DNA of 33,961 nucleotides from Rhodoferax sp. (GTDB lineage Bacteria; Pseudomonadota; Gammaproteobacteria; Burkholderiales; Burkholderiaceae_C). Where the stretch lies: assembly GCA_021738345.1 (NCBI GenBank), contig JAIPCE010000018.1, forward strand, positions 1 to 33,961. Reading direction: 5' to 3'. Each line of letters opens with the position of its first letter. The stretch's first letter is position 1. The translations under genes and the position numbers were made by a program. The notes under the pieces were generated by a model. The model did no database searches, had not been told where the DNA came from, and saw only the letters and a program-made list of their open reading frames with translations. Shown piece by piece: positions 28,228 to 30,763 of this stretch.

Positions 28228-29043
28228 ATGAACGACAACACAGATTTGGTGGGAACAGAAAGCGACCCTGTCCTGGTTCGTAAGCGACGCAAAGGTATTT
28301 ATGTGTTACCCAATTTGTTTACCCTGGCCGCATTGTTCGGGGGGTTTTACGCGATTGTGATGGCCATCAATGGGCGTTTTGACTTGGCGTCGGTCGGTAT
28401 ATTTTGTGCGATGGTGCTTGACAGTCTTGACGGTCGCGTTGCCCGCATGACCAATACCCAAAGTGCTTTTGGTGAGCAAATGGACTCATTGTCTGACATG
28501 GTCTCTTTCGGTGCTGCGCCGGCGCTCATTTCTTATGTTTGGGCACTCAATGGTCTGGGTCGCTGGGGTTGGTTCGCCGCATTTGTGTACTGCGCCTGTG
28601 CCGCGTTGCGCCTGGCTCGCTTCAATGTCAATACCACGGTCGTTGACAAGCGCTACTTTCAGGGCTTGCCATCTCCGGCGGCTGCGGCCTTGGTGGCAGG
28701 CTTCATCTGGTTGATGACCGACCTGGGTGTGAAGGGTCCGAGTGTGGCGTGGCCCATGTTTGCCCTGTCGCTATTTGCCGGCTTGACGATGGTGACCAAT
28801 GTGCCGTTTTACAGCTTCAAGGATGTCAGCATGAAGCGCAGCGTTCCTTTTGCAGTGATCGTACTGATAGCCTTGGGAATCGCCGTGGTAAATATTGATC
28901 CACCCACCGTCATGTTTGGTGTGTTTGTGATCTATGGGTTTAGCGGCTATGTGGTGTATGGGTGGCGAAAAGCCAAAGGGGTTCAAACCAGTGTCATCAG
29001 TACATCAACCGACGAACCGGATGAGCGCGGATTGCATCGCTGA
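28228..29043 (+). CDS. pssA: CDP-diacylglycerol--serine O-phosphatidyltransferase
   Basis: CDP-alcohol phosphotransferase signature 'LDSLDGRVARMTNTQSAFGEQMDSLSDMVSFG'; multi-TM. Confidence 0.94.
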   Translation: MNDNTDLVGTESDPVLVRKRRKGIYVLPNLFTLAALFGGFYAIVMAINGRFDLASVGIFCAMVLDSLDGRVARMTNTQSAFGEQMDSLSDMVSFGAAPALISYVWALNGLGRWGWFAAFVYCACAALRLARFNVNTTVVDKRYFQGLPSPAAAALVAGFIWLMTDLGVKGPSVAWPMFALSLFAGLTMVTNVPFYSFKDVSMKRSVPFAVIVLIALGIAVVNIDPPTVMFGVFVIYGFSGYVVYGWRKAKGVQTSVISTSTDEPDERGLHR

Positions 29044-29061
29044 GCGAAGCTGTGGTACATT
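29032..29061 (+). promoter_or_regulatory. Candidate sigma70 promoter for the leuA leader
   Basis: TTGCAT (29032-29037), 18-nt spacer, TACATT (29056-29061), overlapping the 3' end of pssA. Predicted +1 falls at about 29068. Confidence 0.5.
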
Positions 29062-29067
29062 GTCGCC

Positions 29068-29124
29068 ATGAATTATTCCTTGCTACCGCTACTAACATTG
29101 CGCCAAATCGGGCGGAATAAGTAG
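29068..29124 (+). CDS. Leucine-rich leader peptide of leuA attenuator (MNYSLLPLLTLRQIGRNK)
   Basis: ATG AAT TAT TCC TTG CTA CCG CTA CTA ACA TTG CGC CAA ATC GGG CGG AAT AAG TAG: 5 Leu codons in 18, three of them CTA. Followed immediately by an intrinsic terminator upstream of leuA. Confidence 0.82.
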   Translation: MNYSLLPLLTLRQIGRNK

Positions 29125-29143
29125 CGCGCGCACCTTACTCCAC

Positions 29144-29190
29144 AAAAGGCCCGTTAGCGTTTGCAACGGGCCTTTTGCGTTGGTTTTTTT
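29144..29190 (+). terminator. Attenuator terminator upstream of leuA
   Basis: AAAAGGCCCGTT (29144-29155) / AACGGGCCTTTT (29165-29176), perfect 12-bp stem, followed by GCGTTGGTTTTTTT. Confidence 0.82.
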
Positions 29191-29224
29191 GATCGCGTGT
29201 TTTTGAATCTACAGGAGCAATCGT

Positions 29225-30763
29225 ATGGCTGACAAATTGATTATTTTCGACACCACATTGCGCGACGGCGAACAGTCGCCAGGTGCATCCATGACCCGAG
29301 ACGAGAAGCTGCGCATTGCGCGTCAACTGGAACGACTCAAGGTTGATGTCATAGAGGCAGGCTTCGCCGCCAGTTCGAATGGTGATTTTGATGCTGTTCA
29401 ACTCATCGCAAACAGCATCAAGGACTCAACTATCTGCTCTTTGTCGCGTGCCAATGACCGGGATATTTCACGCGCTGCCGAGGCGCTCAAAGGTGCAAAT
29501 CGGGCTCGCATCCATACTTTTATTGCCACCTCACCATTGCATATGGAAAAGAAATTGCGCATGACGCCTGACCAGGTGTTGGAGCAAGCCAGGCAATCGG
29601 TGCGATTCGCCCGCAACCTGGTAGAAGACATTGAGTTCAGCCCGGAAGATGGTTACCGCAGTGATCTCGACTTCCTGTGCCGGGTTCTTGAAGTGGTGAT
29701 CGACGAAGGCGCAACAACCATTAACGTGCCAGACACCGTGGGATATGCAATCCCCGAGCTGTACGGTCAGTTCATCAAAACCCTGCGTGAACGTATCCCC
29801 AACTCGGATAAGGCGATTTGGTCGGTTCATTGCCACAACGATCTGGGTATGGCGGTGGCCAATTCGCTTGCAGGTGTAAAGATTGGAGGCGCGCGGCAGG
29901 TGGAGTGCACTGTTAACGGACTCGGTGAGCGCGCTGGCAATTGCAGCCTTGAAGAAGTTGTGATGGCCGTGAAAACCCGTCAGGACTATTTTGGCTTGGA
30001 CTTGAGCATCGATACACGCCATATTTTGGCCGCTAGCCGAATGGTCAGCCAAACTACCGGTTTTGTGGTTCAGCCCAATAAGGCGGTTGTAGGTGCGAAT
30101 GCTTTTGCGCATGCATCCGGGATTCATCAGGATGGTGTACTGAAGGCACGCGACACCTACGAGATCATGCGGGCTGAGGATGTGGGCTGGACAGCCAATA
30201 AAATTGTTCTGGGAAAGTTGAGTGGTCGCAATGCGTTCAAGCAGCGTCTGCAGGAACTGGGTGTGCAATTGGACAGTGAAGGGGAAATCAATGCGGCATT
30301 TGCTAGATTCAAAGAACTCGCGGACCGCAAGAGCGAAATATTTGATGAAGATATCCTGGCCCTGGTAAGTGACGAAAGTGTCGGGCATGACCATGATATC
30401 TACAATTTTGTGTCACTCTCCCAGCGCAGCGAAACTGGTGAACAACCCTTTGCACGAGTCGTCTTCGTGATGGATGGGAAAGAAGTCACCGGTTCATCGA
30501 TAGGCAATGGTCCCGTTGATGCGTCTCTCAAGGCGATTGAAGTTCACGCCAAAAGCGGTGCTGAAATGGTCTTGTATTCCGTGAATGCCATCAGTGGGTC
30601 GACCGAGAGCCAGGGGGAGGTCACGGTACGACTTCAAAATAGTGGTCGGGTCGTCAATGGCGTAGGTGCCGACCCCGACATCGTGGTGGCATCTGCAAAA
30701 GCCTACCTGAGTGCATTGAACAAGCTCAGCAACAAGGCGGATAGGGTTGCTGCTCAGGGATGA
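29225..30763 (+). CDS. leuA: 2-isopropylmalate synthase
   Basis: '[47 protein letters not shown]'; 512 aa. Confidence 0.97.

Follow-up and report, generated by a model that had tools for sequence, protein, structure and literature searches.

The leucine leader of enterobacteria, leuL, has a 5' untranslated region with a ribosome site. In the Salmonella leu leader, the replacement of CUA by CUG lowered the sensitivity (Carter et al., cited in PMC1183508), and in Campylobacter jejuni a leucine leader with the rare codons CUA, CUC and CUG, LeuL, precedes leuABCD (PMC3847290). Leader peptides have also been described on RNAs of another kind. For example in S. meliloti, the trp attenuator RNA (trpL/rnTrpL) begins with the very ATG that opens its leader ORF (PMC7298713). 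In Corynebacterium glutamicum, no ribosome binding site serves the synthesis of the ilvBNC leader, and one study counted four leaderless cases among eight small ORFs (PMC4046766, PMC11857589). Burkholderia cenocepacia and Cupriavidus are known to have leaderless mRNAs, and a dRNA-seq data set exists for the former (PMC4603805) as do start-site data for Cupriavidus metallidurans CH34 (PMC7563307). On leaderless attenuators in Betaproteobacteria nothing was found in the literature, the coverage of which was partial, so that this is weak evidence of novelty.

In this work we analysed a stretch of 33,961 nucleotides from Rhodoferax sp. (contig JAIPCE010000018.1), hereafter the window, and the element upstream of its leuA is very probably a ribosome-mediated leucine attenuator in which a leaderless RNA encodes the leader peptide. 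Table 1 gives the features, and on re-reading of the sequence all coordinates given for the leuA leader in the earlier note, on which this analysis builds, are correct; the 18-codon leader ORF with five leucine codons is present as claimed there. Only 24 nt separate the end of the pssA-like gene from the leader ATG, and leuA has homologues of up to 93% identity in the family of the window. An inspection by eye of the ilvI upstream region in the window brought out no prominent leader ORF.

Table 1. Features in and around the leuA leader (positions in the window)
Feature	Position	Strand	Basis and remarks
ilvH RNA, RF02993	26198-26265		sole Rfam match in the window, 92 bits; between acetolactate synthase genes
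CDP-alcohol phosphatidyltransferase gene, pssA-like	28228..29043	+	ORF; putative name from sequence resemblance and neighbourhood
Extended -10 element TGTGG-TACATT, TGTGGTACATT	29051..29061	+	hexamer 29056-29061; conserved in relatives
Predicted transcription start, A of leader ATG	29068	+	inferred from the conserved 6-nt spacer after the -10
Leader peptide ORF, MNYSLLPLLTLRQIGRNK then stop	29068..29124	+	sequence; counterparts in relatives; ATG 29068-29070, TAG 29122-29124
Control Leu codons TTG CTA. CTA CTA. TTG	29080..29100	+	sequence; TTG 29080, CTA 29083, CTA 29089, CTA 29092, TTG 29098
Protector (1:2) hairpin	29087..29126	+	MFE fold, covariation; CGCTACT 29087-29093 with AGTAGCG 29120-29126
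Antiterminator 5' half CGGGC	29109..29113	+	pairs with GCCCG 29149-29153; pairing kept in relatives
Intrinsic terminator hairpin, CAAAAGGCCCGTT / AACGGGCCTTTTG	29143..29177	+	fold, compensatory changes; 29143-29155 with 29165-29177
T-run after terminator	29184..29190	+	sequence
Shine-Dalgarno AGGAG of leuA	29213..29217	+	sequence; normal site
leuA, 2-isopropylmalate synthase, presumed regulated gene	29225..30763	+	ORF and homologues

The evidence for the start of the RNA is comparative. We collected 203 distinct leuA upstream regions, comprising 80 named loci, nearly all labelled as Comamonadaceae genera or Burkholderiales, and genomes of the window's family, and picked leaders by a filter that ignored promoters and asked for a short ATG ORF with a leucine cluster followed by an inverted repeat. 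Among the 126 leaders picked in this way, 124 have TGnTAnnnT upstream of the leader ATG with 6-9 nt in between (6 nt in 63, as in the window, 7 nt in 49, 8 nt in 7 and 9 nt in 5); an ATG in frame within the same ORF was also admitted if it lay no more than 30 nt upstream of the first pick. When the 40 upstream bases were shuffled, the chance rate was 0.67 per 126, and among other ATGs in the same upstream regions only 2 of 633 bear such a signature. The box has the consensus TRTGnTAnAnT across these 124 relatives, and positions that the search did not require are conserved as well when aligned on the box, namely T at -17 (83%), G at -16 (94%) and A at -9 (99%). These sequences are related and not independent of one another; nevertheless the columns from -42 to -19 are unconserved, with information of at most 0.12 bit, and thus the fixed spacing between the -10 and the ATG is not mere relatedness. 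Moreover, the position -1 is a pyrimidine in all 49 leaders with a 7-nt spacer, so that the A of the ATG is the nearest purine at which to start. The earlier note had proposed a promoter TTGCAT-18-TACATT, of which TACATT holds as a part of the conserved extended -10 element, while TTGCAT as its -35 finds no support: no -35 is conserved in the 124 relatives, where -35 matches equal those in shuffled sequences. A promoter scan of the window did not report the TTGCAT/TACATT site.

The features of translation point in the same direction. The window has no Shine-Dalgarno sequence before the leader ATG, as the earlier note had said, and in all leaders the longest match is at most 4 nt, compared with mostly 4-6 nt for leuA in the same regions. 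When GTG, TTG and CTG were also permitted, the start codon was still ATG in 96 of 97 leaders. Such a preference for ATG is expected of leaderless starts. From this comparison of related sequences we infer that the leader is probably translated from a leaderless RNA, and the coincidence of the predicted +1 with the leader ATG is backed by the spacing in relatives more strongly than had been claimed. It is unlikely that the same leucine attenuator works instead with an ordinary 5' untranslated region, starting upstream from a promoter of its own or by read-through from pssA and using a weak or non-canonical ribosome site. The ilv genes and pssA do lie upstream of leuA, all on the same strand, which makes read-through possible, but in 112 of the 126 leaders the -10 keeps a constant distance of 6-7 nt to the ATG, and neither a Shine-Dalgarno sequence nor another upstream promoter element is conserved. 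Read-through from the upstream genes could also feed leuA in addition to the start at the ATG, and an RNA of that origin would not be leaderless.

As a putative leucine sensor, the leader is marked by its choice of codons. The rarity of CTA in the surrounding genes is borne out, for it makes up 4.6% of the 1064 leucine codons in the genes of the window, and against this background at least three CTA among five leucine codons has a binomial probability of about 9e-4. In the leaders of relatives, CTA amounts to 47% of the leucine codons, roughly a tenfold enrichment, which backs the claimed run of leucine codons with a preference for CTA. We also considered that pairing of CTAC with GTAG at the stop codon might be the sole cause of this preference, and rejected it: in leaders with a TGA stop, where the CTAC/GTAG pairing is missing, CTA is still 40% of the leucine codons, hence the codon choice itself seems to be under selection. 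The counterparts in relatives, of which MNTFALALLLPPHGRRQ is an example, have 15-24 codons in nearly all cases; in three loci (L065, L104 and L138) the leaders are longer, 36 aa, with the leucine cluster at the end, for example MNSARVARLAVSRYFKFEIALFGIVTLLGLLLSKAG. Outside the leucine run and the HGRR-type end, which encodes the antiterminator, they vary freely, and this variation suggests no selected function of the peptide. It bears on another reading, which we regard as quite improbable, that the peptide, or the short RNA left by termination, would act in trans as well, by analogy with peTrpL/rnTrpL of S. meliloti, where a leaderless leader RNA of the trp genes does have trans roles (PMC7298713).

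The leader RNA of 133 nt folds at z = -3.8. A GC-rich stem with a T tract is there as the earlier note had described, although the stem has 13 perfect pairs rather than 12; its right arm ends with TTTT before the closing G, and the T-run begins 6 nt past the outermost pair. This terminator is present in 124 of 124 family leaders, and so the conservation of the leucine codon run and the terminator in relatives, with which the earlier note had let its proposal stand or fall, was found. The 5' arm of the protector contains leucine codons and the 3' arm the stop codon, and CGGGC lies within the hairpin. In an alignment of 39 sequences, by which the covariation check suggested for the leuA upstream regions was carried out, both hairpins covary: compensatory changes occur at two pairs of the terminator (G-C/A-U and A-U/C-G, 21 cells), three pairs of the protector have changed in both partners (13 cells) with 80% of its cells paired, and both hairpins exceed all shuffles for cells and for score. 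The proposed pairing of CGGGC with GCCCG was also rightly placed and is conserved in relatives, (A)CGGGC:GCCCG(T) being kept in 97.4% of the cells of this alignment. The helix has 5-6 bp and, in the leader of the window, 5 bp only. As its core is nearly invariant, covariation is uninformative on this pairing and cannot test it, and arms swapped between species score nearly alike (-13.2 versus -13.75 kcal/mol). The antiterminator is thus conserved, and a mutually exclusive pairing with the terminator is plausible. No Rfam family matches the leader, and Leu_leader (RF00512) is absent from the window and 18 relatives at the gathering score. A match to Thr_leader at the leader was rejected as sub-threshold and present on both strands, the latter because the terminator is a palindrome.

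Putting these elements together, the leaderless leucine attenuator would work as follows. RNA polymerase would start from the extended -10 element, at or within 1-2 bases of the leader AUG, so that the RNA would open with the first codon and the ribosome would initiate without Shine-Dalgarno pairing. With plentiful leucine, it would clear the CUA/UUG run, reach the UAG and cover the 3' arm of the protector together with CGGGC, and the terminator GGCCCGUU/AACGGGCC would then form. With scarce leucine, it would stall at the CUA codons and open the protector hairpin, and the freed CGGGC would pair with GCCCG, by which the terminator would be broken and leuA transcribed.

Not every upstream region in the sample has the leader directly before leuA. 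Among the 77 regions that were not picked, a simple motif test places a second LeuA-type gene immediately upstream in 63, and in 12 genomes with such tandem genes the promoter signature is found about 1.8-2.0 kb upstream of leuA. In the three tandem loci inspected (L313, L316 and L322), the first of the two genes is immediately preceded by a leucine leader with a terminator. A few regions have apparently lost the element, among them a Rhodoferax locus (L009) and a Paracidovorax locus (L017), in which leuA follows pssA without a leader.

The same design is met at other amino-acid genes. The signature pattern TGTGNTANANT-N6/7-ATG, which includes no amino-acid information, was searched by pattern only in the 4.87-Mb genome to which the window belongs, where it has two matches and the reversed control none. 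One is the leuA leader, and the other opens a Phe/Tyr leader of the leaderless type, MHSARFYFSYFWFSSACGGREF and a stop (L308:698-880, on contig C313), which lies 96 nt before a gene read from its sequence as DAHP synthase and is followed by a strong terminator, AAACCGCCGG..CCGGCGGTTT, with GGCGGT as a candidate antiterminator. Similar Phe/Tyr leaders occur in ten other genomes of the family. The variant with TTTG for TGTG has one match in this genome (controls 1 and 1), a Trp-Pro-Trp ORF of the leaderless type, MFIHRIVRTGCSDRGAWPWRSRPACPVFAH and a stop, before trpE (L339, minus strand, about 1184, on contig C100). Altogether the three matches in the genome are the leuA, DAHP synthase and trpE leaders. 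In the family, 30 of 31 loci have a trpE leader that carries a GAW(P/S/L)WR-like motif, and the -10 hexamer lies 5-9 nt from the ATG in 26 trpE leader loci; these leaders show no obvious intrinsic terminator, and their conservation extends beyond the tryptophan codons, so that the peptide or its RNA may have a function. At hisG in the genome of the window, no leaderless histidine leader was seen. Across 101 genomes of the family, the first pattern has roughly 93 matches, compared with about 17 in the control, and the 30 loci that were read comprise 16 Leu leaders, 11 Phe/Tyr leaders, of which ten are followed by DAHP synthase and one lies where its contig ends, and 3 loci that are neither. Judging from these sequences, the promoter-plus-ATG design is general, at leuA, DAHP synthase and trpE, and not peculiar to the leuA locus. 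This makes it very improbable indeed that the TTGTGnTAcATT box is the binding site of a regulator, with an incidental spacing from the ATG, for although the strong conservation of T at -17 and G at -16 would suit such a site, the variants TACATT, TATATT, TACAGT, TAAATT and TATAGT fit the tolerance of a sigma-70 -10 element, and the same box stands 6-7 nt before the ATG at the DAHP synthase and trpE leaders of a different pathway.

Beyond the family, 86 leuA upstream regions from other families of the order (loci L223-L306) were considered, and 54 of them, in 28 families, have a leucine leader whose ATG lies 6-10 nt after a -10 hexamer; as the spacing was itself part of the filter, this result is less independent than the test within the family. 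The peptides commonly end in LLLR(L/P)AR before the stop. Only 6 of the 54 have a hairpin followed by at least five T in ten, and instead C makes up 50% and G 5% of the 10 nt next to the stop. Such a C-rich, G-poor stretch resembles a Rho loading site, and the use of Rho there is our guess. Tentatively, and as a picture that is somewhat doubtful as a whole, the order may ordinarily sense amino acids by leaderless leader peptides (Leu in most families sampled, Phe/Tyr and Trp), probably with Rho as the output in the outside families and with the terminator added in the lineage of the window.

In textbook attenuation, the leader ribosome begins at a Shine-Dalgarno site. Unlike this, the conservation across the order points to initiation at the RNA 5' end, which bears on how fast the first ribosome can follow RNA polymerase. 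The leuA leaders would moreover make a rare natural set of leaderless ORFs with a clear readout of translation, the expression of leuA, so that leaderless initiation could be tested by a reporter. Since 27 of the 30 inspected matches are leader peptides, the promoter-ATG signature serves roughly as a detector, and unannotated attenuators may be found by searching for it.

Compared with the known systems, the leader is most like the enterobacterial leuL (RF00512), in that both have a leucine-rich leader before leuA with rare CUA as control codons, a protector and a terminator, to which the antiterminator, here a candidate, may be added, but it is unrelated to it in sequence and apparently leaderless. 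With S. meliloti trpL it would share a leaderless leader and transcription attenuation in a proteobacterium, whereas that system senses tryptophan, is alphaproteobacterial and has an unrelated sequence. The ilvBNC, trpE and leuA leaders of C. glutamicum likewise serve branched-chain and aromatic pathways, but they are actinobacterial and bear no sequence relation to it. LeuL of C. jejuni differs in being 28 aa long and campylobacterial, and a ribosome binding site was among the criteria for predicting the conserved leaders there (PMC3847290). The ilvH RNA (RF02993) is likewise cis-regulatory at branched-chain amino-acid genes, but it is a separate element between ilv genes. The leucine attenuator is of a known kind, and the new part is its apparently leaderless, order-wide form.
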